In this document: one piece after another, positions 6,439 to 46,547 of the stretch
How positions within the stretch are numbered: position 1 is the first letter of the stretch
Layout: each line of letters starts with the position of its first letter
Assembly (NCBI GenBank): GCA_002081555.1
Contig: KV921015.1
Span: 1 to 64,000, forward strand
Direction of reading: 5' to 3'
DNA from: Protostelium mycophagum
Taxonomy: Eukaryota; Evosea; Variosea; Protosteliida; Protosteliaceae
Length of the DNA: 64,000 nt
Program-made: the position numbers and the translations under genes
The notes under the pieces: generated by a model
Told to the model about the DNA's origin: nothing
What the model saw: the letters and a program-made list of their open reading frames with translations, nothing else
Database searches by the model: none

Positions 6439-8101
<1,663 letters not shown>

Positions 8102-10157: not shown

Positions 10158-11077
10158 ATGGGACACAAGGCCTTTTCTCTCACACTTGTATATTATGAGG
10201 ATCAGGATCCCTTATCCCTCATTTTGGCCATATTTACTCTTGCCCCCCTTTTTATTGTTGGTGGCTTTGTTGCAGCTCTGTTGGTCAGACGCGAGCTTCA
10301 ATTATTGTATTTCTTCGTTGGTCAACTGATGAACGAGGTCAGCAACATGATTTTAAAGAGGATAATCAGAGAACCACGCCCTCCAGGTAAGTGTCTATAA
10401 TACAAGATACAATTTAGTGATTTCTTAGGCGCTGAAAGTTTGGGTAAAACCAGTTTTGGAATGCCCTCTGATCATGCCCAATTCATGTCCTTTTTTGCTG
10501 TGTTTGTGATCCTCTTGATCGTCACCCGCAGGTGGACAGCTTCATCGCTCTCAATTGTGTTAATATTAATAGGATGTCTTTACCTGGTGTGCTCTTGAAG
10601 ACAGGAGGTATCTTGGGTGTCTCCTTGCTAGCAATCATTGTCTCTTATTCAAGGTGACGATATTTCTTCTTGTAACGAGCCTCTACCTTGAAATCTGCAA
10701 ATCGAGCTCAAGAAATATGTGAATGCTAGCCCAAAATTATTATTGGGCAAAGAAGACGATTTTCGCTCCACCTTCTTCGTATAATATTATTTCTCACACG
10801 ATACAGAGTTTACTTGGGCCTACACACGTCTGTGCAGGTCCTGGCCGGCGCAGCGATCGGTTCAGTATTTGGATCAGCATATTTCTTTCTGCTGCACGTA
10901 TTATTTGGTCGATTCATCCAGAAGAATATATCATCCCGCATTGTGAGCTTTGAAATAGCCAAGAGCTTGTACGTTGTGGATGCATCGATGGTGAAGACGA
11001 GCTTGATGGAGGAAGAATATAAGTTGTGGGTCAAACTGGCTGAAGAGACACGAAGGGACATAAAGAAGACCAAATGA
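10158..11077 (+). CDS. DOLPP1: Dolichyldiphosphatase (PAP2 family)
   Basis: This enzyme removes phosphate from dolichyl pyrophosphate on the lumenal face of the ER, recycling the lipid carrier for N-glycosylation. The PAP2 superfamily motifs are present: KRIIREPRP (C1), GMPSDHAQFM (C2; PSDH replaces the usual PSGH/PSSH, and the catalytic His is kept) and SRVYLGLHTSVQVLAGAAIG (C3, split by an intron just before VYLG). Four or more hydrophobic segments surround them (SLILAIFTLAPLFIVGGFVA, SIVLILIGCLYL, VFGSAYFFLLHVLFG). The ATG at 10158 gives MGHKAFSLTLVYYEDQDP, typical of the family. The C-terminus is a charged cytosolic helix ending IKKTK*. At least four introns interrupt it. It converges on the bHLH gene with a 53-bp gap. 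Confidence 0.9.
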
Positions 11078-11130
11078 GTCTTAGTACAAGGTGCATTGCT
11101 AATATTTTCTAATATTCATTATAATTATAT

Positions 11131-12010
11131 CTAGACCGACTCAGAATTAACAGCATTTTGTGAATCTTCTTGGTCTTGGGGTTCAGATCCACTTCCTCCA
11201 GCGTCATTCGCGTAATCTATAAATATCACAATATCATCTCGATTAAAATATTACCAAGTGTTGAGAGTGCGGCCAATGTGGTGAGATTGTGTCCATGTGT
11301 TCCTCCATGATGAAATGTAGGGGAGTTCTCTCCAGGATTTCTCGCGTATCCATAAGAACCATAATTAGCAGTGATAGAAGGATCCATCCAACTCTCTGTT
11401 TCATCATTAATACCTCTGGATCATTTCGATCACAACAGATGATGTGTTGAATGCAGTTTCATCTTTAGAAAAGTTGCAGAAAACATGTTGCAGGGATATT
11501 TGTTCATCAAGATTAATGATGATGAGAGTTGGTTTGTGAATTACCCTTGTCGATTCTCCCATCAGCTGTGACAGGATGGCTGTGGTTTGGATCTGCCTGA
11601 GCAGCCACTTGGGCTAATACCTCTGGTGACAAAAAGCCCTTCAGTCTTTCATTCTCATGTAGAAGGTGTATATAATCCTCTTGTGCCTGTCTGTGGTGTT
11701 CCACCAGCTTATGTACAGCCGTCTGCGCACCCATTCAGCTCCATCTTTTTTTGTGGATCGAATGTCATAATTATTTGACCACCAAAGAGTGTACCTTTAG
11801 GTTCTTAATATTTTCGACAGCAGCTTGTAGTACAACTGCTTTGTTTTGGACGCCCTCTGGGTAATTTAACAATTCTCTCAACTCATTGATCTTCTCGCTG
11901 ATCTTTTGTCGGCGTCTTTGTTCTATTATTTTGTGACTCTCACGACGAGCTTCTGTGGCGACAGGGATCACCTCCTTCTGCACTCTATTCCCGCCCGCGG
12001 CCCTGCGCAT
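11131..12010 (-). CDS. bHLH transcription factor
   Basis: This is a putative DNA-binding regulator. The basic region and helix 1 read RRESHKIIEQRRRQKISEK, then INELRELL, a loop (NYPEGVQNK) and helix 2 (AVVLQAAVENIKNLK). His, Glu and Arg stand at the usual H-E-R contact positions, which is the class that binds CACGTG-type E-boxes. A 70-bp intron (ending GGGTGCGCAG) joins helix 2 to a leucine-zipper-like stretch (TAVHKLVEHHRQAQEDYIHL). The tail is Asn/Gly/His-rich and ends QNAVNSESV* (stop at 11131-11133). The start MRRAAGGNRVQK at 12008-12010 is the nearest ATG. A possible extra 5' exon (MVAREHINEE) near 12074 could not be joined in frame. It is divergent from the small gene at 12124. Confidence 0.8.
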
Positions 12011-12123
12011 TCTTCAATCAATCATCCAAGGCGTATGGCTTACTTTCTTCGTTTATATGTTCTCTCGCCACCATCTGAGAATAAATTAAAGATGAAAAAG
12101 AAACCAACCGCTTACCATCCGAA

Positions 12124-12541
12124 ATGCTTGGTGAATTCAGGAAAGCGCTAAGCGAAATTAGAAATGGAGAAGTGAAGGATGTTGAACTTACTTTGCTTTT
12201 GAATGAAGTGATTCAACTGTGTCTGCATCATTTGGAAGGGGGATCTGCACTTCTGCGATGCCCGCTGCAGGAGTTCAAAATGGTTATCATTCTTTTCTCA
12301 CCTCTGTGGTCCAATTCTGACATCTTGTTGTCCAACGACTCTATTTAGTTGATCTGTAGGAAATGGGAAGGATTGGGGATCTCTCGGCCCGTTTGAAGGT
12401 TTTGGTCAATAAATTGTCAAGAAAGGTGCTTCTTATTTGAGAGGCGACGATGCTGTGCACGTGACTCTCTCGGGTTCTGACTTGAGTCACGTGGCGATGT
12501 TGAATCAGAGCCTTCGTTTTTATTTGAATGAGCCAGTGTGA
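12124..12541 (+). CDS. Hypothetical small protein, about 105 residues
   Basis: The ATG at 12124 opens MLGEFRKALSEIRNGEVKD, followed by a helix (VELTLLLNEVIQLCLHHLEG) and PLQEFKM, then a 68-bp intron with donor GTTATC and acceptor CTGTAG. The next exon reads EMGRIGDLSARLK, and a further open stretch KKGASYLRGDD ends RFYLNEPV* at 12539-12541. Joining the last two pieces requires an unusually short intron of about 23 nt, so the C-terminus is uncertain; reading straight through stops at 12439-12441. No domain is recognised. Two CACGTG hexamers lie in the last exon. The start is 113 bp from the divergent bHLH gene. Confidence 0.35.
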
Positions 12542-14703: not shown

Positions 14704-17700
14704 ATGAGAGCAGCTCTGTTTCTGGTGGCAATAATTAGTGTGGTCTCAGGACAAAGTAACAGAGCACCTTGTACGTTCACTGATCCGAATGGAGTGAACT
14801 ATGATTTAACCTCCCTTTCTGGACAAGGAATCGGTCTCAAGTGAGGATGATGAATCATGTAAGATGTAGCTGATTCTCCTGTAGCGGTGATTTGGTGGCT
14901 CTATCTTACTATAATTATACGTGGTCGCCATGCGGGTATGTTCGTTACTGAAAGATGTTTTTTCTGATGTCAACAGCCAATGTAACTTACCTGTTTGCAC
15001 ACAAAGCGGTCTTAGCATGGTACAAAACAGCGGGCCCGCCTCTGGCTGGGCTCTATCCTACACTAACAATCCACTGGTGCAGTGGAGTTTTGATGGTGAG
15101 TGGTGCTTGCCTCATGTAGCGGAATAAATTGATGAATTGTAGGGACAAGAGCTGTATGGCAAGTGTGGTCTGGTGAATCTACAAACAGAACGACCAAAGT
15201 AGCCATTTCCTGTTCCTCCTCCCTCGGCATGAACCTAATCTTTACTTTCTTTTCAGAAAATCCAACCATCACGTACAACATGCAGCTGCAATTGAATTGT
15301 GGATATTGGTTCACCACACCGTACCTACTGTCAATAACGGCGTCCTTCAACACTGCCTTTTCTTCCTTCAACGTATCTGGTAGCTTAATAATATATGGTG
15401 GTTATTTTGGCCAAAACACCAATATCAATGCTGTAAGTTGTCATAATTTAGTGATTTATCTCATGAACTATTTAAAGGTAAGCGTGAGCGTGGGAGGAAA
15501 TCCATGCACAGTGAACGCTGTGAATAATACTGCCATCACTTGTACTTTATCTTATATCACTCTGGGAACATACACCACCTCTGTAACGATCAATGGGAGT
15601 CCGTGCAGAAATACACTGCCATTATATGTTGCCGCTGTCAGTAATGGCACTTCGGTACCCACAATAGGAGGTACATCTACGATGGCATTATACGGATTAT
15701 CCGGACTACTTTCTAAGATCAGTTCATCATTCGGTGCCACGCTAAAAGGCTCTCCAATATCAGTTATATCCTCTACGGTAATATTTTATAAAACATCTAA
15801 TATAATTGACTCATCACAGAGCACGCAGCTGCAGCTGAATATTCCTGCAGGATGTGGTGCGAATCTACCGTTAAATATCATCATCGGAGGTATGACTACA
15901 GATATCGATGAAAGCGATAACACACAACAGCATATACTTTCTCAGTTTATACACAGTACAATCCTGCTGTGGTGACGAGTATGACGCAGACGACTTCTCC
16001 AGGAATTAATACAGTGACTTTATATGGAGATAACTTTGGAGTGAGCACAAGTGATGTCACTGAGATATGGATCGGACAGCAAAATTGTTACAATATCCTC
16101 ATGATTTCGCCTCATAAGGTCATCAACTGCACTTTATCTGGTCCATTTAACTACAATTACAATAGCGGCAGAGCTGCGAATAATATAATGATACTCAACG
16201 GTAAGAACAGTACTATAATATTCGATTAATGACCACAGGTGGTGATGCAGCGGTGCCACAGATCAACCGACAAGGAGCAGTGATACAGACATTGAATACA
16301 GCATCTGGATGTCTGCAAGCTTGTATCGGTACATCAAATTGTGTCAGCTTCGTTGTAGATTCCTGTGAGAATAAATGCTATCTTCAGTCCAACATGGGAA
16401 CTGCAGCATTTGGGAATTGCTTTTCATCGGGAGTTATAAGAAGTCGTACAACATATGGTAAGATATCTGAAGTATTGTTTCTATATTCTGATATGATTAG
16501 GACAAGTGGGAATCACTCAGATCAGCCCAATCAATCCTTACGCACCCTGCCAGTTCACGGACCCAAAGGGAATCGTGTACGATTTAGGTTACTACAGCGA
16601 TTCACAGGACTGGATAACCACGGGAAGCTCGTACTATTATTCATTCAATCCCTGTGGAACTCAACAAGCATATTACTTTGGTGGTTCATTATCATTTTCC
16701 CTGTCTCAAAATTTTGCACCGATAATATCAACCAACGATTATTCATTCAAATACGACAGCACAAGTAATCAGACATCATTAGTGGGAAACTCCAATTACT
16801 TGTACAATTGTTTCAGAAGTGGAGTGGTACAGTTGGTGTGCAATAACTCTATCAATACCCCAGTACTGCAGTATGTTAGCGAGAACCCAATTTGCCTATA
16901 TAATTTTCAATTCATCTTCAATTGCGCGCAAGCAGCGAATCTGAATTATCTGAGATTTATACAGTCTTCATCAGGTACGTGAAATCTTATATGCCTATTT
17001 ATTCATATATAAATAGTCAACACATATTCTCAAGGGACGATGACTCTGACCGGTCAATTTGGTAACATTCCCACTGCTATACAGGTTACCGTCGGAGCGT
17101 GAGTAATCGATACGTTATTTATGATTATTTATATCTGTAGGTCTAATTGTAACGTCCAATCTGCGAGCAGAAATATGATTACGTGTACAGTCGGACCGTT
17201 ATTCAACGCAACTGCACTCGTTGTAGTGACAGTTAACGGGCTTATTGCGAGAGGTGGATTATTCCTCACAAGTATTCCCAACCCTGTTGTTTTCGGAACA
17301 TCAGTATTACCATCAAACGGTGGAACCGTAACTATTAATGGGGCAGGTTTCGGGATCAGTACCTCCGCAATCAGTGTATCTATAGGTAGTCCACCTGATC
17401 CAAATCAATACAGATCTGTATTGATATCATTCAGGCGGTGTACCTTGTGCCGTACAATCGATAGATGTCAACGGCACCAGCATTTTCTGTGTCATAAATT
17501 ATACTCCAAGTGGTACCAATTTGCCCCTCTCCGTTCAGATATCTCCATCTACAATGAATCTGGCTGCTGGTTTGATGGTCAATTATTCGGCTCCTACGAT
17601 CTCTAGCCTTACACCTTCCGTCACTACTCTCAACATCTATGGGACTTATTTCGGACCCAGCGGACCCAACACCCTTGTCGACCGAGCATTTGGAGACTTA

Positions 17701-20700
17701 CCGTCATATCCAGTGGTGGTCAATACAGCTTTTGATTGTCAAACACTCTGTGCTCAGTAAGTCTTTCATGATTATCATCTCTTCTAAATCGATTAAGGAA
17801 TGCTGGTTGTCTCGCTTGGTCAGCAAATATATGCGTCAATGGCGGAACTGTGGCCTATTGTTGGTTGAAGAATCTCGTGTATCCGACCAATTACGCGCCG
17901 TGTTCCATTTCAGGAATCAAATCGCCTGTCAGCGTCACCATCGGAAACACCCTCTGCAGTATTACCTCCATGACGAGCAGTCAGATCACTTGTTCGGTTG
18001 CACCCGGTACAGGAACAAATATTCCCTTGATGGTATCAGTCAACGGCCAATCTGTGAATTCATCATACAGCTATCCACCACCAATTATCACATCAATCAC
18101 ACAGACGAATACAGTGGGAGGAACTGTAGCCATACAAGGTTTTCTTTTTGGTGCATCAGCTTCAGATTTAACAATCATTATCAACGGACGAGCGTGCACC
18201 GGCATCTTCTGGTATAATGCATCTTACGTATCCTGTATGGGAGGCCCCGGAACCGGCACTGGTTTACCTGTAAATATTACTGCTGGACGTCAATCCACAC
18301 AAATGAACCTGTTCAGCTATTACCCACCAACTGTCATCTCCGCAACAAACAGCGACACTGCCGGTGGTCTCATTACAATCACCGGCTCAAATTTTGGAAC
18401 TATATCAAGCTCAATCACCGCCGTAGTTAACGGTCAAATGTGTATCAGTGTAACGACGATCACGGATTCAAAATTCAGCTGTGTAGTCGTTGGTGGAGTG
18501 GGCACAAACTTGGGAGTCTATGTAACAGTGAATGGTCAAACATCCACCACTCAGTACATCTTCAGCTACAATCCGCCCTCAGTCATTTCATCGACGCCAA
18601 CATCAACAGATGGAGGACTGATCACTATCACTGGATCAAATTTCGGACCAGCGGGTACACAACCTTTCGTCACCATCAATTCCCAGACTTGCAGTAACGC
18701 AATATCACAAAGTAGCACATCGATTACGTGCTCCGTATACCCCGGTACTGGCTCAAAGAATATCGTTTCGGTGATCGTCGGAGGACAGGGCATGACAAAC
18801 TCGGCATTGTACTCTTATCTACCACCGACTGTCACCATGGTCACTCAGGGAAATACCACTGGTACCACAATCCGAGTGACAGGGTCAAACTTTGGAACAG
18901 ATTTCCAAAAGATCACAGCCAAGATCAACACACAAGATTGTACATCTATCTCCGTATCTAATTCTGCGGCATTCCAATGCAACGTAGCAGCTGGCATTGG
19001 TGCTTTTCTTCCTGTTAACATCACTGTGGATGGATCATCCTTTTACAACCCAGTGGGATATAGCTATTATCCTCCATTTGTGACATCATCAACGTCAATC
19101 GGCACATCAGCAGGAAAGATCAATATCACCGGTGTCAATTTTGGTACAGATCCAAACTTCATTACAATCACTGTTGGAACCCAATCCTGCTCATCTCCTA
19201 CATTTATCGCCACCAACACTCTACAATGCGCACTTCCTGGAGGCACCGGAACATCACCCTTGCTCGTCACTGTCGGTAACCAGAAATCATCCCCTTTCTT
19301 GTACAATTACCAACCTCCAACGATAACCAACGTGAACATCATTCCAACGATTGGTGGAACAATGCAAATCACGGCGAATAATCTCGGAACTAATGTAACG
19401 GCTATCTCAATGTCACGGTGTATCAGCCAATTGACTTTGGTTGGGAATGCAGTTTCCTGCAGCGTGGGATCAGGGTTCGGCTCGTCTGTTGCAGCTACAC
19501 TGACAGTGAATGGACTGTCTACAGCCTTCACCTTCTCTTACATTGCTCCCTCTATTGCCAATGTGCTACAACCTCCCACCAATGGAACTGGACAGATCAC
19601 ATTGTACGGCAGTAACTTTGCCTCGTCTTCGACTGTTATTGTGAATGGCGCCCTGTGTGCAATGACAACAGTTGCATCCAACTTATCCATGATACAATGT
19701 AATTCAATTCCTGGAATAGGATCAGTACCAATCACTGTTCTTGCTGGAGATCAACAAGCAAGATCCACACTCGTATATCAGCCACCCACAGTGATATCCG
19801 CCAATATACTTCCCACATCAGGAGGTAAGTGGTCTTTTGTATTTCTTGGTTATCATACTAATCGTAATCAGGACCTCTTTTAATCAATGGTGGCAACTTC
19901 GGCGCAGATGTAACACAGATATATGTGGCTGTGGGTGGTCAAGAATGCACAAACAGGAGATTGACGATAGCACACACACAAATCAATTGCACACTGGCTC
20001 CAAACGCAGGTTTCAATGTAAATCTAGTGGTCACAGTCGGAGGGCAATCCACGACTTTCCTTTACACCTTTCAAGCCCCCTTTATCACAAGCACATCCTA
20101 CTTATCCACCGGAGGAGATACACTAAAAATCATCGGTGGTAACTTCGGACCATCCAACAGCCAAAACACAGTGACAGTGATGGGGTTTATTTGCTACATG
20201 ATCGGAAGCAGCCCCACTACATTGACATGTAGTTCCCCACCAGGCACTGGAATGAACCGCACTTTATCCATAAATGTGGCAGGACAGTATGTTTTCGGAA
20301 TAGTGAGTTATCAGCCACCTTCTATAGTGAGCGCCAGTACGCCAGGAGATCCAGGAATGATATACATATCGGGTGCAAATTTCGGAAATAACGCTAGCTT
20401 GATCACTGGAAGAGTCGGGACGAGTGGAGTGTGCAGTTTGATAACAATCGTGACACCTAATTCAGGCATCTACTGCTATTATGCAATGACAGTAAATCAA
20501 GGGGACCCAATCATTATTACAGTGGATGGACAGACATCTCTACCTGCTAGATATTCAGCAACAGCACCAATCATCAATAGCATCATACAAGCACCAACGA
20601 TGGGAGGCTCTGTAGACATATTGGGGAAAGGATTCGGTACAGACATCACTAATATCAACGTCACCGTGGACGGAAGACTGTGCACCATTACCGGCATTTC

Positions 20701-23700
20701 AGACGACCACATCACATTCTTGATATCATCTGGCGTGGGCAGCAATCTCAAAGTTCTTGTCACTACGTCTGGAATATCTGCACAGGGAAGCTTCTCATAC
20801 ACAGCACCTACGATCACATCTACAACACTTGTATATACAACTGGTGGTATCATCATCATCAATGGTACCAATTTTGGGGACAATACAAATCAGATGATTA
20901 TCACCGTGAATAATCAGGCTTGTGTCTCCTTGGTGATCATCAAGAACTATACTAGTATACAATGTACAGCAGTAGCCGGAAGTGGAGCTAATATCACTAT
21001 GGGGATATATGTGGGATTAGCTCTGGCCAGTGGCGTGATGAGTTACCGACCTCCCATATTTGCGAACGCATCGTCTGTTCCCACAGCAGGAGGAATGATC
21101 TTCATTTATGGCTCAGAGTTTGGACTCAGTAGTTCAGCTCTAGACATCCGAGTTAATGGAGTTGATTGTACATCACCACAGGTCACCAGCTTAGGAACAG
21201 TCATCTCCTGTATGGCGGCACCAGGAACTGGTGTAAATCGATCATTAACAGTCAGCGTCTCTGGACAATCAACAGTGGGAAGTTATAGTTATCAGTCTCC
21301 TGTGATTACATCCGCAACCTCAGCGCCAAGCAATGGAGGGCAAATCACCATTTCCGGTTATAACTTTGGTGTCTCAGGAACTTTCCTCGCAGTGAACGTA
21401 TCCGGTCAGCCATGTACATCTCCAACTACTTTGGTCAACTACGTATCAGTGACATGTCAAGTACCTTCTGGAATCGGCACAAACCTCTCTTTGACGATCA
21501 ACGTGGATGGACAGATTTACACAGCAAACATCTACAGCTATTCACTTCCCTTCATCTCAGGAGCAAGTTCTATCAATACTACGGGTGGTAACGTCTATGT
21601 CAGTGGCGGCAACTTCGGTACGGATCCATCCAGTATCAGTGTGTACGTAAATGGTGTCTCTGTGGGTGATGTTTCTATTGAGACACCTCACACAAGCATA
21701 TCCTTTGTTGCACCACCCGGTACTCTCAGTTCCAATTTCATCGTTGTGGTGGCGGGACAACAAACTATTGGAAACTACAAATACCTTCCACCAACCGTCT
21801 TCAACAGCACATCACCCATGACAAACGGCTCTATCATGTTAATTTACGGTTCTAACCTGGGAAACAATAACTCGGTCATTACTGTGAGCTTCTCCGGTGT
21901 AGCAGTGCCAGGACAGATCGTGACAAACCACACAGTAATATCATGCATAGCACCACAGGGAACAGGCATCAACCATTACCTTATTGTCACTGTCAATACG
22001 CTCTCCTCATCTTCTCTACCTTGGATTTATGCCTCTCCAGTGGTCACAGATATGACATCCACTTACTCCTCTGGTGGATCGATCAATATCACCGGTTATA
22101 ATTTTGGACAATTTGCCCCCATCATACAAGTCGCAATTGGAAACACTTATTGCACAAACATCGCAATCATCAATCCACACACAAAGATAAGGTGCACATT
22201 ACCTGCAGGAGTGATTGGAATGGACAATCCAGTCACCTTATCGGTGGAAAGCATATCAACACAGAGCAACTATGTATCATTACCACCCTACGTCTATTCG
22301 TCCATCCCCGCTTCCACATCAGGTGGAACTGTCACCTTGATTGGCGCCAATTTTGGATCAAATATTGCCAACGTCAGCGTATTCCTCAACGGATACGTAT
22401 GTCCTTTGGTAACCGTTCAGGACACAATCATCACATGCAATGTGACGCGGAGTGGAATGACAAATACTGGTGGAAACATCACAGTGTATGGACAGATGGG
22501 TATAATACCATTCACAACCTATCTCCCTCCAGCCATCACGAGCATATCACCCTCTGAACCTCAAGGCGGCCCCATATCCGTAACTGGCAATAACTTTGGT
22601 ATCAATCCAGACAAGATCAGCATCAGTGTGGGAGGAATCCCATGCACTGATATATCTATTTCATCGATAGATACAGTAGTCAACTGCACAGCACCATCTT
22701 ACAACGGCACTAACCGCACGGTCATCCTTTCTGTAGACGGCCAAAATAGCAAGGAATTTCCACTCACGTATTATATTCCGGTTATCAATAATATCACCAA
22801 ACCATCAACACAAGGGGGAATAGTACAGATCAGCGGATCTCATTTCGGTAATTCCACAAACTTATCGGTAGTACTTGGCGGAGATACTTGCACATTGATA
22901 TCTGCCACATCAACAAGCATCATCTGTAACATTACGGAGGGTGTTGGAGCATCTTTAATTGCACAAGTGACAACCTTCTCCCTGTCTACATTTGGAATAT
23001 TCTCATATCAACTGCCGATAATATACAACATCACATCACCACCAACTTTGGGAGGAGTAGTCAACATCAGTGGCTATAATTTTGGCTCCTCAGAATCAGC
23101 ATTATCTGTGGGGATCAACGGAAAGACATCGTGCACTAACATTGTGATGTTGTTACCACACACTCTTATCAGTTGCACAATAGAATCTGGCACAGGACAG
23201 AACATCACAGTCAATGTTACTGTATCTAATCAGAACTCCTTGGGAAGAGTGTCCTACATCCCCCCATTCATTCAGAGTGTGGATAGCCCAACAACAGCAG
23301 GACAGACGGTCAAATTTACAGGAACCAATTTTGGGAATGATCCCAGTGTGATCATAGCATATTTTGGTGGAGTGATCTGCAGACTTCCAAGCATCATACA
23401 GAACTCTGTGTCATTTACATGTGCAGCGGCTGCAGGTACTGGTGACGCAAGTGTCTATGTAATTGTAAATGGAGGAATATCGCCATCGATTACGGTACCT
23501 TACCAACCACCAACAATCACTTCCATCGCCCCAGCAAATCAATCTGGAGGAACACTCATACTTTATGGTACCAACTTTGGACAGGACATCGGAGTGATCA
23601 ACATCACCTTACCCTGCATCAATATGACCATAATCGCTCCACACACCGCCATAGGCTGTTCATTAGAATACGATATTATAGAGACCGTGAATTTCACAGT

Positions 23701-26700
23701 GAGCATTGATGGACAGAGCGTGAACTACAGTGGAATCATCAGAATACCACCAACATCATATCTGAAGCAATACTACGGTTTATTATCTCTCGTGACCAAC
23801 TTAAAGAGTCAACCCACAATCAACTACTGCCTTTACCAAGGACTCACCTGCACAGAGGGAGATATCACATCCATAGACTTTACAGGATCTCTCCTTCTCT
23901 CCAATCTCGCCGGGTTATGCAATATGACATCATTGATCACCATAAAGTTATCCAATACCAACTTGACAGGGAATATACCAACATGTCTCAATGACAATAG
24001 TATCATACGTTATATGGATCTCAGCCACAATCAACTCTCCGGTGTGATACCAACGATCAGTGGGCTGGATATTTTGGACTTGTCATATAATCAACTGAGT
24101 GGTACCATCCCGTCTTCTCTGGGAAATGGCAATATCACCATCCTCAACTTGGCCCGGAACGATCTACAAGGATACATACCAGGAAGCATATCTCTATCTA
24201 GCTCTCTCACAACACTTTACCTCGCCGATAATTACCTCGCTGGATTTGTTTTCTCGTCACGACCACCAACGATCACAACTTGCGATATTTCCAAGAACTT
24301 TCTGGCCTGTCCCGTAGCAATGTGGGTTATATCTGAGTGTGGTGGAATCTGTGGAGAAGTGGTAGTAAATCCTACTATGAACATCACAAGAGAATTGCAG
24401 AGGGCCATCTTGTCTCAGAGTCCAATTGTGAATTTGTACTTCACATCAGGATACTACGGATCCGCTGTCTACACTATCTTTCCTGCTGTATCAGGACAGG
24501 ACATTCAATTTATCAATTACGACGGAGGAAATGTGATATTGGACAACTTATCACAAATGACAATCACTGGTGGTAATTCTTTGTCGGTCAAGGGTTTCAC
24601 ATTTAACAACGTGCGAAACTTGGTCCTATCTACCACTCAGACAGGCAGTGTGTATATCTATAATTGTACATTCCAGGGATCCAGGTGAGAACATATTATT
24701 CTTCATCATGCATCACTGACTCATATTACAGTGTAACATCATTATCAATAGATACCCCATCCTCCTCTGTAGTTGTGAGCAACACCAGTTTCATCAACAA
24801 CAAAGGGCCCTCTATCGTCATGCCAGCAACTAATTTTATCTCAACAGTGTCATTGAGAGGAGTGAGGTTCTACAATAATACCGCACAGCCAGTATCTATA
24901 TCTCACACCATCGACTCATTCTCCATCTCAGAATGCATATTTGATGGAAATGTACACAACAGAATTGGTACAGTGGGACTGAATGGTGATAACATCGGAT
25001 TAACAAACATCACGAATAGTTGGTGGAATGGCAACACAGCACAGGCAGGAGGAGCAGTGTATATATCCCCTCAATCATTAGTCATCATCATAAGCAATAG
25101 TAACGTCACATACAACACAGTTTCTGGAGAAGCAGCAGGGTTCTTCATATTTGGTGGTGCAAGACAGACCATAATAGATGGATGTAATCTATTGCACAAT
25201 ACAGCTCAGATAGGTGCCGGTATCAGCTTTCATTCTATTGTACAAGCTAACGTCACAATAACAAACACAACATTGAGCGGCAACACAGCACCACAAGGAG
25301 CTGGTATATCATTCGACTCAACATCACCGATACAGAGTATGGTCTTGGGAAACAGTATCATGAGCAACAATAATGGACAGAGAGGATCCTTATACCTTCC
25401 AAATACAGGATCATCATACATATACAACTCAACATTCATCAGTAACAGTGGAAGTGCAATATATGGAGATCTGTTATCAGGAGAAATGAGAGTAGAGGGC
25501 TCAGTGTTCCAAAGCAACACGGCTAACCAAGGAGGATCTATATCATTGAACGGAAGAGCAACACAACTCGTAATCGCAACATCCAATTTCTCAGAAGGAA
25601 CAGCCTCTACGGTTGGTGCAGAATTATCGATGGAGATAGTGCTTGGGGTATTTAATATCAAGAACTGCTCTTTCATGTATTCAGATGCCAGTCTTAGAGG
25701 TGGTGCTATCAGCATCGGAGCAACAGCAAATATACGTAAGTTCACAGTGGAATACAGTGCGATTGAGGGAACCACATCTCTCTTTGGTTCGGGCATCTCT
25801 GTAGCTGGAATTTGTAACAACATGTCAATCAGTTATTGTAGCTTTACCAACAATATAGCTCAATACGAAGGTGCTGGGGTGTATTCAGTGGACAAGTCTG
25901 TACAGAATATGTACATCAGTAATTCATATTTCACACAAAATACTGCTGTGTCGGGTGGAGCATTCAAATTTACTGGAGGAAATACATCAGCAATCTATTT
26001 GTACAACAACACATTCCAAGGAAATACCGCTACAACTGGAGCTGTTATCACACTACAAAAAACATCCAATATTCTACTTGTTGAATCTTGTCAATTTTTG
26101 AGTAACTGGGCGTCAAATGGAGGTATGATCTATTCCAGTTACAACTGTGTCAACTAAATGAAACTCAGGAGCGATATATCTCACTCAGAACGTAACAAGT
26201 GGCGTGACATTCATCGATTCTACCTTCACGCAGAATTCAGCTGATCTTAACGGTGGTGCCATATATTACGCTCAAACAGCCAACATCACCATACAAGGAT
26301 GTACATTTAACAAGAATACCGCAAGCTCTGGAGCAGCCTTATACACTATCATATCTGGAAAGCAAAAGATATGGATGAATATCCTTGAGAGTAGAATGCT
26401 TGGAAACACTGCATCTCTTTCAGGGCCCGTATACATCTCCTCCAGCAACGCTCAATTTAGTCTTGTATTAGATTCCTCTGATTGGTATGTGCTGAATGAA
26501 GAACATGTGATTGATTAGTTTGTAGGGAAGGTAATAGTGCAGGACAAGAAGGAGGAGGAATATACGCATCTGGGATGATGAACAGTATCAGCTGTACATA
26601 TTCCAACTTCTCACAGAATAGTGCCTCAACCGGTGCTGCCATCTCCGTACAAGCGACCAATAGTTTGACCTTTTTCTCTTTCTGCAATTTCATATACAAT

Positions 26701-29267
26701 TCAGCATCGAGCGAAGGAGCTCTATACCTTGTTGGTGCTACAGAAAACCGAATAGAGAACTGTACCATATCAAACAATAATGCTAAGGTGTCTGGCGGTG
26801 GAATTCAGTTTCAACCAAAGCTGACAGAATCCACTTTGGTCATTTATACTTCAACCTTGACAGGCAATACAGCGGCTAGAGGTGGAGCAGTGTGTATACA
26901 AGCACCCACACCATCAAACGTAGTGTACAACGAAGTAAAGAATAGGTGGGTCAATAATACAGCCACTTACGGTGGTGCGGTGTCAATAGACGGAAATATC
27001 AGAAATGCAACTGTAGATGGAAGCGAATATCGAGGAAATACTGCAGCTACCGGAGGAGGGATCTATTCTACAGCATTAGGAGCGATCATAATTTCACAAT
27101 CAATGTTTGTGCAAAACAAGGCATCAAATAGCGGTGGAGCGGGAAGCTTTTCTGGAGTGAGTTTAATGAGGGTCTTGAATTGCATGATTGGAAACAACGA
27201 GGGTGTTCAAGGAGGAGGATTACAGATCATAATGAGGAATACGACTAACAAGAGGAACTCTGGAGACCAAACATCCATATCATCTTCACAGTTTGTGGGC
27301 AACAAGGCGACAAGTGGAGGAGGATTGATGGCCTTTACACCTAATCAAAATGCACAAGAACATACGATGGACATAGTAGATTCCATTTTTGCGACAAACG
27401 AAGCTTCACTTCAAGGCGGAGGAATGATGACGTCATCAGGTGCTTACCTGAGCAATATCACTTTTATAGATAATGGAGCCCCACAAGGATCAGCTCTCGC
27501 AGCCGGTGGTAATTCAGGAAGTAAGTATGAATGCTTTGAATCAAATGTTGAATGGATGCAGGTATCGTAGTGGGTGTCGGTCAATCATCAGGAGACCAGA
27601 ACATGATGATACCAGCTGGCATACAAGCCTTCCAGACATCTCTCCTCCTTCCTTGCCCTTCCAACTATGTTATCACAAATGACTCGCAGACTGGCGCCGC
27701 CTCGTGCAAACCAAAAGAATTAGACCAGACAAGCAATGTCATCAGTAAAGACAACAACACAACATCCACAATACCCATAATAGTTGGGTGTGTAGTCGGA
27801 GGTGTCATCATCATATGCATCGCTGCGCTGTTTGTACTCTATCGAATGAGAACAAAGAGAACCAAGAGATTTGAGAGCACATTGGACATGACACAGTTTA
27901 TACCACAGTTCCAGAAGAACACAGTTATCAACGAATCAGAATTGAAGAACATGACTCAGGTAGGCTTGAGTTTGTATATAACTGCTCACCACTGTAGATC
28001 GGAAGAGGTGCATTTGGTGTCGTTTATAGAGCACAATGGAGATCCGTACATGTTGCTGTGAGTATTGATAATAATCTCTTCCTCACTGATACGAAATAGG
28101 TGAAACAATTACTGAACCAAGATATGATGGAAAGAGAGCATGTTGAGGCCTTTGTTCACGAAGTACAATTATTAGAGCGACTGAGACCTCATCCTAACTT
28201 GGTGCTGTTCTTGGGTATCATACAGCCACCCAACCTCAGTCTTGTCACGTGAGTGTTTTTAGTTCCAATTGCCCGATCAATTTTCTGATCTACATAGTGA
28301 GTTCTGCGAGGGAGGAGATCTGCTCACTTTTATCCGCAAACAAGTAAGATCTCTCACATAGACATCGGCTGATAACTTTAAAGGACCCAGAACCTGAATT
28401 ACGCTTGACTTGGATTTGTGATATTGCTGTTGGTATGCTCCATCTCCATAACGAGAATATTGTGAGTCTGTTTATATTTCAACCGATAATTAACATTGCC
28501 CAGATACACCGAGATTTGGCAGCCAGAAATGTAAAGAGTATCTTCAAATTACAACTGAAATTTACCATCGCAGATTCTTCTGACTGGAGCCCTTCGTGCA
28601 AAAGTGACGGACTTTGGGTTCAGTCGGCAGATAGAGTCATCTGATCAACAGAGCAAGACATCCTCTGACGTAGGGCCACTGAAATGGATGGCACCTGAAG
28701 CCCTCACAAACCGTGTCTATTCTAGTAAGAGTGATGTGTACAGTTTCGCCATCACAATGTGAGTTATTACAAAAAATGGATCTCGGGTTGATATTTTGAT
28801 AGTTGGGAAATAATTACTGGGAAAGATCCTTATGAGGTAGAGTTATTGATTATCATCCAACACTGACTAACTCAATAATTCAGGGGCAAAATGTTGTGCA
28901 TGTGGCGATAGAGGTGTCTTCCAAGGGGTTGAGACCACCTATTCCAGACGCAGATCTTAAGGTCACAAAGCTGATGACGCAATGCTGGCAGACCGACCCG
29001 GAGGATAGACCTGACTTTGATGCAATCTGCCACTATCTCAATGGAGATATCGACGCCCCACAAGGAGAAGAAACAAACGGTGCATTTTTCGGGACTGAAG
29101 GCCCTCACTCAACCAACTATTCTAAAATGGAGGAGAACTCTCTTTCTGAGCACATTTTCCAGAAGAAAGACTATCAAAGCGAGAAGACGAATTCCCAAAG
29201 CCCAGCCGCCCAAAAAGACGAAGGCGAACAACATTACGGCAAACTCGTATTTGGAGAGGATGCATGA
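14704..29267 (+). CDS. Giant single-pass receptor kinase: MRH-PAN-IPT/TIG array-LRR-beta-helix-TM-tyrosine-kinase-like
   Basis: About 4,400 residues after splicing. The ATG at 14704 starts a signal peptide (MRAALFLVAIISVVSG). Domains in order: a mannose-6-phosphate-receptor-homology-like domain (CTFTDPNGVNYDL, to about 15300); early IPT repeats; a PAN/apple-like module (16260-16440); a second MRH-like domain (CQFTDPKGIVYDL, 16510-16975); another PAN-like module (17690-17900, split by an intron); a dense IPT/TIG array to about 23760; a short LRR run (LDLSYNQLSGTIPSSLGNG, 23880-24330); a beta-helix of NTA..GGA repeats (24560-27500); one membrane span (PIIVGCVVGGVIIICIAALF, about 27775-27840) with a TKRTKR stop-transfer; then the kinase. 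Kinase motifs are intact: GRGAFGVVYRAQW, VAVKQL, IHRDLAARN, VTDFGFSRQ, GPLKWMAPEAL, DVYSFAITIWEI. HRDLAARN and KWMAPEA are tyrosine-kinase-type. The kinase part has about ten introns in 1.1 kb, whereas 19.9-24.7 kb has none. It probably acts at the plasma membrane in adhesion or prey/ligand sensing (inference). The stop at 29265-29267 converges on dynein. Confidence 0.9.
15370..23760 (+). repeat. Array of about 28 IPT/TIG repeats inside the receptor gene
   Basis: The module is about 80-90 residues with the core GG-x(3)-I-x-G-x-NFG, followed by a Cys-containing strand (as in GRLCTITG) and a G-x-G near its end, then SYxPP/ITS joining it to the next. I counted about 28 cores by eye: roughly three before 16300, two near 17310 and 17630, then about 23 between 18100 and 23570. 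Examples are GGLITITGSNFG, GGSINITGYNFG and GGTLILYGTNFG. IPT/TIG folds are immunoglobulin-like and are found in plexins, the Met receptor and Dictyostelium Tgr proteins. Repeats are diverged at the DNA level, so the array is old rather than a recent expansion, although 18360 and 18600 are close to each other. Confidence 0.9.
24560..27500 (+). repeat. Beta-helix (Pmp/pectate-lyase-like) repeat region inside the receptor gene
   Basis: A loose repeat of about 25-35 residues recurs across the region: N-x-NTA-x(2)-GGA-x(2) followed by alternating hydrophobic residues. Examples are NTAQAGGAVYI, NTAPQGAGISF, NTAVSGGAFKF, NTAARGGAVCI, NTAATGGGIYS and NEASLQGGGMMT. This is the signature of right-handed parallel beta-helices, such as chlamydial Pmp proteins and similar eukaryotic surface proteins. 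Three introns (near 26122, 26485 and 27520) fall between repeat cores. It forms the membrane-proximal stalk of the receptor. Coordinates of the ends are approximate. Confidence 0.75.
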
Positions 29268-29395: not shown

Positions 29396-32300
29396 TTAAG
29401 TGCTCCAAGCAATGATGGCTGGAGCTCTCTGTGCCCATGCTAAGGAACTTCCTTCGTTGTCTCCGTTATGAATCTTGACAGGGACTGAGAAGATAAATTC
29501 GGATCTCAGCTCATTGAGGTACACTGGGAGGATCATCTGTTCCTTTCCTTTGACAACCTTGCCTCCTGCCTCATTCTTCCATCTGAACCTGGCAAGTGGC
29601 AGTGGGGAGGATGTCTCATCTGTGTTGACAAGGCATTGTTGCTCGTGAGACCAAGAGGCCGACTCTAAGACGAGATCCTTGGCAATGAATGTGTCTGACT
29701 CAATCGAAGATGTGTTCTCTTGCAATATTTCCATGGTCAGAGTAAGATTCTCTACGGACCAACCGTGCGCTTGTGCTGCTGATTGTCTGGTGGCAGTAAT
29801 AAATGCTTCAGGGTGGAACAGCCCACCGACCCAAATGCCTCCTCTTCCGTATGCTCCATTCTTTTGTTCTCCGACTGTCTTCATCTGCTTCACTCTCTTT
29901 GATAAGTCCTGGATCCATGCATTCAACGATATTGATGACGGGACAGAATATTCCTTCCAGCTCTTCGGAACAATACCTGTAAAAATTAATTCCAAACTTG
30001 GATGATAATAATATATTTACCCTTGGTAATACTGGATATTAATTCTCGGGTGTAGTTTGTGGGTTTCAAAGTGCCATCGCAAATCTGTATCAACTCTTCC
30101 ACGTCGCGATGAACCTTGGTGAGGAGCTTCACTCCCTTCTCTATCTCCCTCTCGAAGAATCTGAAGAGGGGATCCTTCACCGATGCTGCCGTTCTCTCAA
30201 GCAGTTCCAATTTAGGAGGTAACTGGTTTCTCCAAGCTTGAAGGGTGATGGATAGGGATCTGGCCCACGCTGGACGTTTGGTATCTCCTGATTCCGATTT
30301 ACTATCATCAATCTCGTCTCCGATATCCTCCTGAGTTACGCTCTGTAAACGTAATAATTTCCTAAGCATTGTCTGTCCCTGGCGTGTGAGCAAGAGGACC
30401 TAGATTCAGTGAGACTGATAATCCTTAATCATTATTACCTCAGCGTTCTCTGGAAGTCCTAACCAAACGGGAGATTCTGTGTTGGGGAGTTGTTCGACCC
30501 AATTTACAAAATCTTGTTTGGATTTTCCATCAGGAATAGTGAGTGAGGACTGGGATCCACTGGGTCTGAAGAGGGGGAAATTGACATCAAATGAATTCTC
30601 TGTGAAGAGTTGCTTCAAGAAAGAGTCGAGCAGTCTCTGATCAAAATCGTTATCGATGCGACCACCGTATACTGTCTGTCCAAGGAGTGTTCTCAGTGCA
30701 ACCCAAGGTATCTTCTCTGGTGCCAAATTAGACTTTCCTTGAGCTGCTTGATCTATCCAATAATCTATGGTGTCCAGTGCGACACGTTGGTCTGCCTCGT
30801 TAAATTCAAACATCTTTGACCATCCGAGAGGTGCGTATCTCAATCTCTCCTGTATCACTGCATGGAACCATGCCTCCAAGAAATAAAGTCTGGATCTACA
30901 GATATTAATTATTTGGTGCTAAATAAATAAATTACCTCTCAACTGGAGCACGATCCATTCTCTGTGATGATATTCCTGCAAGTGTGTGCTGTAAATTGGC
31001 CTTGACTCCTGGGGGTGGTTCAAAGACAAATACCTATTAGTCGTCACAAATAATAATAATAATAATGAATCTACAAACCTGAGACATACGGAGCAAATTA
31101 GCGGGTAATTTGGGATGAATCTCAGCTGTCATGAAAAGTCTGAAATTGGTGTGTGGGGTAAGATTATGCAACTTCTTCTCTAATTGCAACAACCAAGATG
31201 GGGCCAGATGAACGTTTTTCAGTAGTACCCAACTTCCTCCCTTTGCTGCTGCAGCGATAGTCTTCTCAGCTAATTCGAATCCTTCGTCACTACCCATGGC
31301 TAATGATTTATATGTCTTCTTGTACTTGGCGGCCAGGTTATCCACCTAAAATAATCAACACATCAATCACATCTTCATGAAAAAGATCACCTTCACAGAT
31401 GGGTCGAAACCGGGCATAGAGCAGAAGAATAATGGTTCGTCACAAGTAGCCTCCTTTTCGACTACTTGACCCAGGTCTAACTCGGGTGTGTTCAACATGT
31501 CATCACCGAATACTTGAGAGACAAATTGTGCTGCTCCTGCAGCAATACGGTCCGGTCTCAATGCCTTCAGAATCAACAATCTCCTGATATATATGAGTAT
31601 TTATTCTCTGTCCGTGTATTGACTCACCTGAAGGAATCCAATTGAGCTCTCTGCTGGTCATCCTCGAGCTTCTCCTTTCCTTCCCAGCAATTGGGGACGG
31701 TTGTCTCTGCTGTGGGGTTATGCAAGAAATTTGACCACTGCTCCTTATTCGCTAAAATATGGTTGGGTAGATTCTTGAATGCTTCAATCATGGACATGTC
31801 TGCCGTCATCCTGCTCTGTACTGCTGAAAAACCTTGGAAGCTGTCGGCTAAGCTTCCTGATGAGGAGAAGGAATCGCCTCCTCTCAATAAGAATTCTTGT
31901 TCCTCTTCATTTGGTTCTTGTGGAGTTCCCTTGAGTTGTATTTGAGCTAATCTTAATGCAAAGGGGATATGGTCTTGATGTAATAGACCTCGTGTGACAC
32001 GTCTGAATACAGTGTGGAATAGATCAGATTGTAACACAGCAAGTCTCTGTTGTGGGTCCTTGATCTTCTCGAGATTAGGGTTGTGGTGTAATACTCCATT
32101 GAATATTTCCAAGAAGAACTTCAGAGAGAATCTGTACAAGAAATGGATCTGATCTAATTGATCGATAGCAAAGTAGATCCTAGAGCAGGCTGATCCAATA
32201 TTGTTGTATGATGCGCTAACCCTGGATATCTCCTCCATAATCACATCTGTTTCCTGTACCTTGGCCATAATATCTGCTGCCTCTGATTTCAAGGTCTCCA

Positions 32301-35300
32301 ATGTTCCAATAATCTTGTCGTCGTCCAATATATTTCCAGATGATTCATTCAGTGCCTTCAGCAGTGACTTTTCTAGGTTTCGGAGCTTCACCTTGAATTC
32401 ACCTTGAGCCTTGATTAGTGATTGCTGCTTCGAATAGACATCGGGTGACTCGGTCTTCAAAACTTGATGCATGCATTGACTCTATATAATGAGTTAGATC
32501 AGTTCTAATCACATGAGATATAATGGATTTACCTGAAGAGAACCAGGGGTAACTGTAAAGTTGACAAAGGTGACACGAGAGCAGAGATCGGGAGTAAAAT
32601 GTGAGGAAGGATCCCTGGTGATGAGGAATATGACAAAGGATGGGGAGAAGTCGACTTCTTGATCACCGAGCTTAATGAGTACTCTGCCACCCTTCTTATG
32701 TATCTCTTTGTTGAGTACAGGGTTCAATACTGGGTCTATCGATTCCACGTCATTTACGATCAATGGTGTTCCAAATCTCAATGCTGATTCAAGATTCTTC
32801 ATGAAACTAGAGTCCAAGAAACTAGTCTTCGTAACCTGGATATAGGTGAGCATTATCTTATATCATCAGATCAGCATACCTTCTTCTCTCTGTATTGATT
32901 GAGTAAAAACTCGGCTGCTTGTCCGGATGGATCGATGACGAGAGGATATCTGTTGAATCTTTGTAGCATGATGGCATTCTCCATACATAGATCGTCTACG
33001 GGTAGTGAATTGCTCTGCCATGTCAATCGCTCATCTGGTGAACTGAGGTATTCTACTACGGATAATTCCTGCTTGAATACTACACCAACATTCTCAAGGT
33101 GGGACATCCATTTCTTCATCAGTTGTGTTCTCAGATTCTGATCGAAGAAACCGATGTAGGCTAAGAATGCTGATGATAGCAGTACATCACCGATAATGGT
33201 GGACATGTTGCTCTGGAATGTCTGTCTCTGGGATTCCCAGCGTCCTGATTCAGAAGATAATTTCTGCAGGAGTGATATGGACCTCTCGACCTTCTCTTTG
33301 ACTCTCTGTAGTTCAGTCTTGATCATCTCAGCGTCACGAATGAGTACGGCGTATTCATCTTTGTATCCTCCTATCGCCTTCTCTAAATCTTGTATCGTCC
33401 CTTGTAATTCGCTCTGTTGGCTTGCTAATAAATTGGCATCTTCCTCCAATTGATCGATCTCCTGACGCAATGGTTGTACTCTATCTAATATCTCCGAATA
33501 CATCATCTGTGCTGTAACCCATTTCACAAGTGGTCCACAAGCCTTGGAGGCTCTGTTCACCGTCTCGAATGTAAACTTGGGGTCCTCCAGATAATTCTTC
33601 TCGATAAAAGATCTCATCTTAGAGGTGATTCTCTTGGAGTCAAATCCCACAATGCTTGGAATGAATCCTGCTTCGACAATGCTTCTTCTTATCTGTGCCC
33701 AATCCAGCTGCTTTCCATGAAGCATGAAGCACACCGCCTCCATAGCAAGTTGTACCGGTGCTGGTGGTTTGGCGAGTGTCTTGATCTCGTCCAAATGTTG
33801 CCTCTTGATTCCTCCTACTGCTTCCTTCGCTTCCTCTATGGCTGGCTCAACCTTCTCAAGATCTTCATAGGCCTTCTTCTTTCTGACTTGTATCTCACTA
33901 TTCTGTTGGTCCAGTTCGGTCTGAAGCTGTGTGCTGTCCTTCTTCTTCTGCTCAGCCACTTGCTGATCCTCTACCTATTTCGTATTAATTTTATTCTTAT
34001 ACAACCACCTCACCATCTGCTTCAACTTTTCGTTCGCCAAGTTGTTCTTTGCCTCCAATTCTTGGTTCTTTGTGGCGAGAGATTGCTGTAGCTCTTTGAC
34101 TTGCTTCTCAGTGTCGTATAATTTTTGTAGACCGATATTCAAATGCAGCTGTTGCTCCTCTAACTCGTCCCTCTTCTCTCCGATGAGATGAACGAAATGG
34201 TTGATGAAATCGAGGTAATGGCGGGGTGTGAGATAATTGTGCTTTCCTTGCTTCAACAACTGTTTGTTGGCCTCACCCACTGACTTGTGCACAAACACAA
34301 GAGAAGAGATCACAGCGTCTCTGTAAATCTCGGGCAAAGGCAGGTCTAATGATTCAGGCCATACTTCTGGTTGCCTGTAGTTGGCATCGTCCAAATCTAG
34401 ATTCTTCGTAAAGTCGCTTCCAACTTGGAATAATGCATTATTGGACCATTCGCCGAACCAATCCAGAACACATCGATTGAAAAGTGCCGGAGATGTTGCC
34501 GCTCGGTTGTGGAATTCTGGCGAAGCAGGGTTCATTGTAAAGACCACGTGTAAGTTTCTTCTCACTTGACCTGTGAACCATCTGTATAATTCCTCCTCTG
34601 AATTGCATCAGTATATGTCATCATACTATTCTATATCTACCAGAGTCGATGATTAGTCCATTCCTCACAACAGCCTCTTTGCATTGATGTATCAGAGTGG
34701 TGTATTCGTCTCCCTCAAAAAGACCCGGGACTTCACCAGATGCTAATAAGGTGTTCATTCTCTCCAAGAAGGATGACTCTAGAACGTTTGACTCGTCGAA
34801 TATAAAACAGATCTTTTCATCCTTGCATCCAGATCTACGCATCACATGTCTCAGGTCCTCATCGAAATCCTCAGCCGAGTATCGGTTATTCACCTATGAA
34901 TATGATCAATAAAGAGGATATATAACTCAGGAAATACCTTGATGGTGAATATAGATAAACCATTCATCCATGCTACGAATCTTGATAATACGGTCTTTCC
35001 ACCACCACTAACACCAATCAATAGAGCATGACCTTGTGGTTGTCTAAAGACTCTGTCTATCCTCAATATGTGGTCCAAGACTTCATTGAAAAGTACTAAT
35101 GGTACATCGAGCTCCTCCTCATAGAAGACCTTCAGACGTGCCTTGACGTAATCCCTCAGTTCATTCCTTCCGACGTTGGTGTATTCCTTTGTAAGCCAAT
35201 TGCTGAACAATATTGGTCTTGCTAGCGATTCCTTCTGTAAGTTGGGGAAGTGTTTAAGAGCAACTTGATCAATTGCGGCATCCGTCCATTCTTGTTCTTC

Positions 35301-38300
35301 CTTCTCCACGAGTCTGTCTTGGAATAACCTCAATCCCTCATGAACCCATAATCTGATCATAAGGTCTAATGTACATCCCTCAATTGGTCTCAATGCCTCA
35401 TGCATGGCTCTGATCCATCTCGATAATTCTCTCGGTGAATATATGTAATGAGCGTGCATATCCGGTGTGAACCTCTTCTGGGATTGTGTGTAAAATTCCA
35501 CCATCGCCTCAGTGAGTGGCTCGGCATATGCTCCCAAGTTGGGTGTTAGCTTCAATAGTGCACGGCAGAATGTTCCGTAAATCTGTATCAGTGATGATGC
35601 CGATGGGAAATCGACCAATAGTAGAGGAGCGTGTCTGAGGAATCTGTGTGTGAGATTTACTCTTCCAGCATCGGTGGGTGGGTTACAAGCACCGACGAAC
35701 TGTATTCTCTCCAATGTGATCCAAGTGTGATCTGATGCCCTCCAAAAACCGCCCTGCTCCGTCAACTGTCTCAAGAATGTGATCACTCTCTGGGTACCGT
35801 AATGATCCGCTGAGGGAAGATTGATCTCGTCACAGAATACAACCAGCCATTTTCCAACTTGGTTTGGACGAAGGACCACTCCCTTTGGTGTCTTCTTATA
35901 TTCACAGTGATGGTCGAATGTCTTCAATATGAGTGCTGGAGTGGTAGCACTTGAGAAGTTGAGTGATACTAGGTCGTAGTCGGGGAAAGCAGATAACGTG
36001 GAAAATAGTGTCATTGTCTTCCCTGATCCTGGTGGTCCACATAATAACAATGGCTTGTGCTCCGCTAGCCAAGAGTGTATCACATCTTCGTGACGGACAG
36101 TATCCACAGTGGGAATAACAACATCAGGAGATGATACTTTGTGTGTCTCAATCTCCACTGCTGGTACCTTATTCTTCCACAACGCCCAATCTCCACTCTC
36201 TAATTCCACTCCATACTCTAATAAATTGAATGTTCCCGTCTCTGGCATTCCATTTTGCACCTAGATTGATTTCAATATGATAAATGATATAGTTTATGAT
36301 TACCATAGAAGATACCCATGTTGCATAATTCTCTCTCTCTGACAGAGCTAAAGAACCACCGAATCCCCATACGACTGAGTAGATCACTCTGTTTGTGATG
36401 TACTTGGTGACAATATCAACATTCAATGGAAACTCAGAGTGTAATTGGTTGAATGCTATGATATTGGAGACACCCTTGTTCACCAATGAGAATAGGGATG
36501 TCAGTACTCTAAGTCTGGTAAAGTCCATGATGTGCTCTCTCTTCGAAGCATTCTCCAAGGCCTTGAGTATAAAACTGTCTCCATCTTCTGATATGAACAT
36601 TGGTCTTATGATACCAGCACACTCCTTCTGTGTCTGCAGGCCAGGTGTAGAAGCATCTGATGGTTGAGATTGTTGTTGAGAGACAGCTTCCCTCTCCAAT
36701 TCATCTATCGGAACTGATGATAATGATGATAGGTAATTCTCCAATATCATATCTGTGGACACTGTTTCCTCAGAGAACCATATCATCCCACATCTTGATA
36801 CTGTAGCGAGCGTCGCGTACTTGAGATCTTGTACCTCGAACATGACCCTCACATTAGATGGTAATGCTAATCTCTCTCCGTTGGGAAGCGTCAACAGCTT
36901 GTTGTCATCCAATAAACTGTTAAGATTCTCCACCCATTCTGGGTCTACATCTCCATCGAATATAATCCAATGTCTCTTTGTGCTCTCTCCTCTCACGTTA
37001 TCGATGATCTTCCTCATAATGTGTGTAAATAATCCGTCCGTCCATTCTCTGGTTGTTGGATCCAATGTTCCGAATAATTCCTCCTTCGATATCGACTTGG
37101 GATCAATGACGTAAGATACACCCTCTACATTCTCCACCAATTCCAAGGCCTCTAATAATACCTTCCATGCGAGAGATTTTCCGGAACCACTGGGACCCAC
37201 CATCATCACTCCATGGCATAATAATTGTATCTGGTAGAGTTGGAATAATTTTTCTATCCAAGACTCCTTCTCGACAAGGTGGTACTTTTCAGATACTTGG
37301 CTGATCCGTTGTCTCAATGCAGGATTCTGGAGAGCATTGTATTTAGTGCCCGGGAACACATCTGATAGTAGAGAATGAAGAAGTGGAATATCCTCGGCCA
37401 CAAGCTTGGGTATGATCGTCTCACATATGCTCTTCAGCAGTACGTCTTGCTCATGATCCTGCACATATCACTATTAAATCATATTAGCAATAAAATACCT
37501 GTTCATTGTGGGAAGGATTCTCTGCAATATCTACTATCATCTTCCTCTTCATAGATCCTGCACTGACGAGAACGCTCTTCAATGCTCTCAAACCGAAATC
37601 GTAATGTGGTTGTGCTGATAATTGCTCGCTACATAGCTTAAACAGAGGGACGATCTTGGCGGCCAATCTCTCCGCTGTCTTAAATCCTTGGCTGTAAAGC
37701 ATCACTTGAGCAATGAGCTCACGATCTGGTGATATCATAGCAATCCCACGGAATAATTGCTTCAGATTGTCCGGTAAGTTGGACCTTCCTGCATACCCAG
37801 GATTCATAGTGACGAATATTCCTGTGTCTTGGTGTATGTTGACCTGTTATCATAAATATCTACATTCTCTTGATCTGATCATACCTGCTTGCCGATCAGC
37901 TCCACACGATCTGCCTTCTCTTTCAATGCAAGCTGTATGATCTGTATTTGTTGTGATACAGCAGATAGAATCCTCTCTTCAAGACGATTGAATTCATCGA
38001 AGCATCCCCATGCACCGCATTGACACAGTCCGATAAATATTCTTATCATGGCTTGGAAATCAAAATTCTCATCACAGCAGAATACGAGGACAAATCTCCC
38101 CAGTTGGCTTCCCAAAGCCTTCACTGTCTCTGTCTTTCCTGTTCCTGCAGGGCCAAATGGATTGCCTCCAAGACGAGCCTCTAATGCTTGAGTCAAAGTG
38201 AGGTAACATCTGTCTGTGAGCGGAGTGGTGACCAATCTCTCTCCTACTCCAAGGTATTCGAATCCGTAAAAGAATCTGGCGTTTGCAACTTCGATAGTGA

Positions 38301-46463: not shown

Positions 46464-46547
46464 GTATTGATAAACGAAGAAATCATTTTATAAATAAGTT
46501 GTCGCGATAATTCGCAGTCAGCAGGATAGATTACAACGCTCTCAGGA

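Follow-up and report, generated by a model that had tools for sequence, protein, structure and literature searches.

A giant gene of Protostelium mycophagum predicted to encode a single-pass receptor kinase with an interleaved MRH-like, PAN, IPT, LRR, and beta-helix ectodomain

Overview

The window analysed here is a 64,000-nucleotide stretch of Protostelium mycophagum contig KV921015.1. It contains a gene on the forward strand that extends from an ATG at 14704 to a stop codon at 29267 (14704..29267), consists of 25 exons and 24 introns, and has a predicted product of 4,507 amino acids (aa). The gene model and the predicted domains provide good support for one gene whose product is a single-pass receptor kinase. 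The preferred reading of the product, with a probability of about 0.6, is a type I single-pass contact receptor kinase with a glycan-binding head on a long rod, which would be activated in trans and would recruit SH2 proteins through its tail tyrosines.

From the N terminus, the product contains a signal peptide, an MRH-like domain, three IPT domains, a PAN domain, a second MRH-like domain, two IPT domains, and one IPT domain split by a second PAN domain. These are followed by 23 tandem IPT domains, a short LRR, a Pmp-type beta-helix, a membrane span, a complete kinase, and a tail with three tyrosines. A previous sequence-only reading had proposed the order MRH-PAN-IPT(~28)-LRR-beta-helix-TM-kinase and a length of ~4,400 residues. 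All of its modules are predicted in one gene and the product is indeed giant, but the IPT, PAN, and MRH domains are interleaved rather than strictly linear, and the length is corrected to 4,507 residues. Profile searches of the kind suggested in that reading leave the predicted IPT/TIG, LRR, beta-helix, and kinase assignments secure and the PAN assignment marginal. The MRH assignment is the weakest, pointing solely to the cation-independent mannose-6-phosphate receptor (CI-MPR). All features of the receptor gene described below lie on the forward strand.

Gene Structure

To obtain the gene model, spliced reading frames were searched between the ATG at 14704 and the stop at 29267. All 24 introns are of the GT-AG type and are 38-49 bp in length, and the only stop codon in the 4,507-residue product is the terminal one. 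Two introns in the kinase were placed by hand, guided by conserved kinase motifs. When a gene finder was run over both strands of the whole window without preset boundaries, it also returned 14704-29267 as a single gene with the same start and stop, in agreement with the earlier claim of one reading frame through about 25 exons. The codon model of the gene finder was trained in part on exons of the receptor gene itself. In a fairer control, the codon model was trained on the neighbouring dynein gene alone, and 20 of the 24 introns were recovered. Under the same rules, no complete reading path was found on the reverse strand, in another wrong-strand stretch of equal length, or in three shuffles.

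Introns are dense in the kinase (eight introns) and in the N-terminal third of the gene, and the 23 tandem IPT domains plus the LRR are nearly intron-free (one intron). This distribution fits a modular assembly in which the tandem IPT array would have expanded inside exons.

The intron at 27521-27561 is 41 bp in length and, if retained, places a stop codon right after the beta-helix. A secreted ectodomain isoform is possible through this retention.

The stop reached on intron retention counts in favour of a rival reading in which the model has fused two neighbouring genes, one for an IPT/beta-helix adhesin, secreted or anchored, and one for a separate kinase. Such a fusion is very improbable. 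A single 4.8-kb exon holds the IPT array, the LRR, and the start of the beta-helix, and the membrane span is encoded in one exon together with the last part of the ectodomain; these common exons argue against a split. In addition, the gene finder unites all parts as one gene, no AATAAA or ATTAAA was found between 16.4 kb and the end of the gene, and a kinase on its own would be without a signal peptide.

Neighbouring Genes

A cytoplasmic dynein 1 heavy chain gene (29396-44234, reverse strand) ends 129 bp from the stop codon of the receptor gene. The best solved structure for its C-terminal 720 residues is from Dictyostelium (748 bits), and mammalian-type dynein 1 scores at most 661 bits. Taken with the short introns of the receptor gene, these scores point to an amoebozoan source. 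Two further proteins are predicted. One carries two adenylate/guanylate cyclase catalytic domains together with several hydrophobic segments (55500-58666, forward strand); the other has a helicase-associated HA domain (PF03457) and no helicase match (46272-47694, reverse strand), and its gene model is uncertain. The ordinary neighbours are an RBBP4-like WD40 protein (6463-8101, forward), a helix-loop-helix protein (10472-12323, reverse), a sulfate permease with a STAS domain (52582-54570, forward), and a Rab-like GTPase (60918-61780, forward). The window also contains a 158-bp tandem repeat at 360-838, present in three copies with 93% matches.

Proposed N-Terminal Head

The first 16 residues (14704..14751), MRAALFLVAIISVVSG, are hydrophobic by inspection and resemble a signal peptide.

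MRH-like domain 1 (aa ~20-155; 14761..15300) and MRH-like domain 2 (aa ~509-642; 16527..16928) are 34% identical. The CIMR profile gave E values of 0.007 (domain 2) and 0.075, and each copy alone falls below the Pfam cut-off. The best PDB match of domain 2 is CI-MPR (E = 0.0075). When a profile of both copies was compared with solved structures, CI-MPR was the only significant match (2.8e-4). A model of domain 2 alone made with AlphaFold was unusable (pLDDT 38.7).

CI-MPR uses Gln, Arg, Glu, and Tyr for sugar binding. Both MRH-like copies contain the pattern Arg..Cys..Glu..Tyr with a Glu-Tyr spacing of 6, and the search alignment, which scores low, matches the Arg, Glu, and Tyr of domain 2 to those of CI-MPR. 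An aligned Thr-Gln common to both copies may supply the fourth binding residue. The R/E/Y and Q would then match the sugar-binding set of CI-MPR as a putative site.

PAN-like domain 1 (aa ~427-495; 16200..16444) matches PAN_1 (E = 6e-4) and PAN_4 (E = 3e-4). PAN-like domain 2 (aa ~846-915; 17671-17921) lies inside IPT domain 6. With the N-terminal 2,837 residues as the query, PAN_1 scored 21.7 bits against a cut-off of 21.4 and PAN_4 scored 27.3 bits against a cut-off of 27. Searched singly, each copy falls below the Pfam cut-off, and a two-copy PAN profile found nothing significant among solved structures (best E 0.1).

IPT Array

A profile built from the repeats of the protein itself identifies 29 IPT domains, which corrects the earlier count of ~28 and leaves the large array as claimed. 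In a Pfam search with the N-terminal 2,837 residues, TIG matched in 25 stretches (E = 1.2e-170). Domains 1-3 (aa ~160-425; 15313..16196) were found with the own-repeat profile and with TIG (1.3e-10), and IPT2 is degenerate. Domains 4-5 (aa 652-807; 16956..17556) were placed by the own-repeat profile. Domain 6 (17590..18074) is split by PAN-like domain 2 into halves at aa 819-845 and 916-966, which match positions 1-30 and then 29-81 of the own-repeat profile. Domains 7-29 (aa 968-2843; 18078..23752) form a tandem run of 23, supported by both the own-repeat profile and Pfam, with one intron inside.

The pairwise identity of the repeats has a mean of 30% and a maximum of 44%, which indicates that the array is not recently amplified. 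No solved structure was matched by sequence when four IPT repeats were used as the query.

LRR and Beta-Helix

The short LRR domain (aa ~2845-3050; 23756..24373) matches LRR_1 (3.3e-11) and LRR_8 (3.1e-9), both above the Pfam cut-off, and LRR_ComC (2e-4) below it. It is followed by a right-handed parallel beta-helix (aa ~3051-4062; 24374..27584) that matches Beta_helix (2e-17) and Chlam_PMP (3.7e-10) above the Pfam cut-offs and carries Pmp-type GGA[IV] and FxxN repeats.

A 463-residue portion of the beta-helix is encoded by a single exon, and its structure, predicted without an alignment, has a pTM of 0.75. Foldseek listed beta-helix proteins for this model, none of them at E < 0.001 (best 0.011). 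VIA-align gave Z values of up to 26.8 over 389 residues, with matches to autotransporter passengers, tailspikes, and polysaccharide lyases. The predicted beta-helix fold is backed by this model and its structural alignment. The fold is common to beta-helix proteins and carries no functional information.

Membrane Span, Kinase, and Tail

Hydropathy places a transmembrane span at aa 4124-4147 (27768..27839), followed by the basic stop-transfer sequence RMRTKRTKR. This is the only span above threshold in the whole product, as the sequence-only reading had claimed, and the predicted single-pass topology is well supported.

The protein kinase domain (aa ~4183-4440; 27945..29063) is intron-rich and matches PK_Tyr_Ser-Thr (4.1e-73) above the Pfam cut-off. 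It is complete, as previously described, and retains every catalytic residue: the Gly-loop, the VAVK lysine, HRDLAARN, DFG, and APE. The ectodomain is dominated by repeats that are common in adhesins, as would be seen if the protein were largely a structural adhesin or matrix component with a vestigial or constitutively active kinase and no ligand gating. That the catalytic residues are all kept across nine intron-separated exons argues for selection on kinase activity and makes such a protein a highly unlikely explanation.

The catalytic loop of the receptor kinase is HRDLAARN and the P+1 loop is GPLKWMAPE. In the same alignment, the corresponding sequences are HRDLAARN and VPIKWMALE in EGFR, and HRDLKSPN and GTPEWMAPE in CTR1. 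Where the P+1 loop pattern GTPxWxAPE has its Ser/Thr, the receptor thus has a proline. Absence of Ser/Thr from the P+1 loop is a criterion for tyrosine specificity in the Dictyostelium kinome paper (PMC1420674), and by this criterion tyrosine specificity is favoured; the receptor kinase probably phosphorylates tyrosine. The cytoplasmic tail (29064..29264) contains three tyrosines, Y4459, Y4477, and Y4498.

The principal rival keeps the receptor but assigns it a TKL-group kinase of Ser/Thr or dual specificity, which would signal without SH2 docking, like the DRK/GDT receptor kinases of Dictyostelium. The kinase is 43% identical to CTR1, a plant TKL kinase, versus 32% to EGFR. Its best single-domain PDB match is CTR1 (175 bits) versus ~161 bits for the Src-Abl ancestor, and its activation loop is Ser/Thr-rich with no Tyr. 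The HRDLAARN and GPLKWMAPE motifs, which are of the tyrosine-kinase type in the same alignment, speak against this rival, and it is considered possible but rather unlikely. The kinase appears to combine a TKL-like backbone with tyrosine-kinase-type motifs. EGFR was rejected as the closest relative; its top score of 280 bits adds two kinase copies in one chain.

Proposed Mechanism

The ectodomain of the preferred contact receptor kinase is ~4,100 residues long. Its 29 IPT domains and 1,000-residue beta-helix would make up a rod at least roughly 100 nm long, which would hold the MRH/PAN/IPT head at a distance from the cell. Possible ligands of this head are mannose-type glycans or glycoproteins of another cell, of prey, or of the matrix. 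Binding of a ligand would cluster the receptors, and the kinases would phosphorylate each other in trans. The tail tyrosines may then recruit SH2 proteins, leading to adhesion, uptake, or aggregation. A role in adhesion or in sensing prey or bacteria fits the predicted make-up of the ectodomain.

MRH recognition of mannose-type glycans serves lysosomal sorting and ER quality control elsewhere. The narrower proposal of a glycan-sensing amoebozoan receptor tyrosine kinase, in which MRH domains would sit at the end of an IPT/beta-helix rod of ~100 nm and be coupled directly to tyrosine phosphorylation, is doubtful and is offered tentatively.

Comparison with Known Receptors

The general plan of an IPT ectodomain, one membrane span, and a kinase is already known from Dictyostelium rk3 and animal MET (PMC1420674). 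The receptor follows this plan, with a signal peptide by inspection, IPT/TIG domains, and a single span before the kinase. The architecture had been described as unfamiliar, which applies to the combination of outer modules but not to the plan: the MRH-like, PAN, 29 IPT, LRR, and beta-helix combination could not be matched to any described protein. Like the receptor, rk3 of the DRK family is amoebozoan and has a signal peptide, extracellular TIG/IPT, one membrane span, and a C-terminal kinase, which is TKL-type in rk3 and TKL-like in backbone in the receptor; the comparison is by description, in which a TIG domain is the only extracellular domain reported (PMC1420674). Unlike rk3, the receptor has 29 IPT domains, MRH-like, PAN, LRR, and beta-helix modules, and tyrosine-kinase-type catalytic motifs. 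Animal MET/RON share the IPT stalk, the single membrane span, and, as judged by the catalytic motifs, a tyrosine kinase. The head of MET is formed by Sema and PSI domains and its IPT domains number four; unlike the receptor, MET is without MRH, PAN, LRR, or beta-helix.

Membrane-spanning tyrosine kinases and SH2 proteins occur in Acanthamoeba and Physarum. As given in the main text of the two papers, membrane spans are predicted in seven tyrosine kinases of Acanthamoeba, unique domain combinations occur in most of the tyrosine kinases of this amoeba, and Physarum has three with a membrane span (PMC4053784, PMC4758236). These receptor-type kinases resemble the receptor in being amoebozoan and single-span and in their tyrosine-kinase signatures, and IPT or beta-helix ectodomains are not mentioned in the main text of these papers. 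As far as that text extends, a large domain-shuffled receptor kinase is therefore a variation on a known theme.

The beta-helix resembles chlamydial Pmp and autotransporter passengers in its GGA[IV]/FxxN repeats and right-handed form. Unlike Pmp autotransporters, the receptor has no C-terminal outer-membrane beta-barrel and ends in a membrane span and kinase. Sequence similarity to the MRH/CIMR repeats of CI-MPR is weak, with the R, E, Y pattern of its sugar site preserved in a low-scoring alignment. CI-MPR functions in trafficking and has no kinase, whereas the receptor has a kinase and just two repeats near its N terminus.

A literature search found no MRH- or IPT-bearing amoebozoan receptor tyrosine kinase. 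Searches with short peptide patterns, which exclude close relatives only, were negative for the MRH pair and the kinase when run on viral contigs, and for the beta-helix and IPT stretches when run on bacterial and archaeal genomes.

Significance

Phosphotyrosine signalling is known in amoebozoans, and its ligands are, to our knowledge, largely not known. With this gene, the amoebozoan repertoire gains a candidate contact receptor whose enzyme is of the tyrosine-kinase type. The apparent combination of a TKL-like backbone with tyrosine-kinase motifs in its kinase bears on the origin of tyrosine kinases. If the MRH head binds mannose-type glycans, the receptor would provide a testable link between the recognition of prey or kin glycans and receptor signalling.
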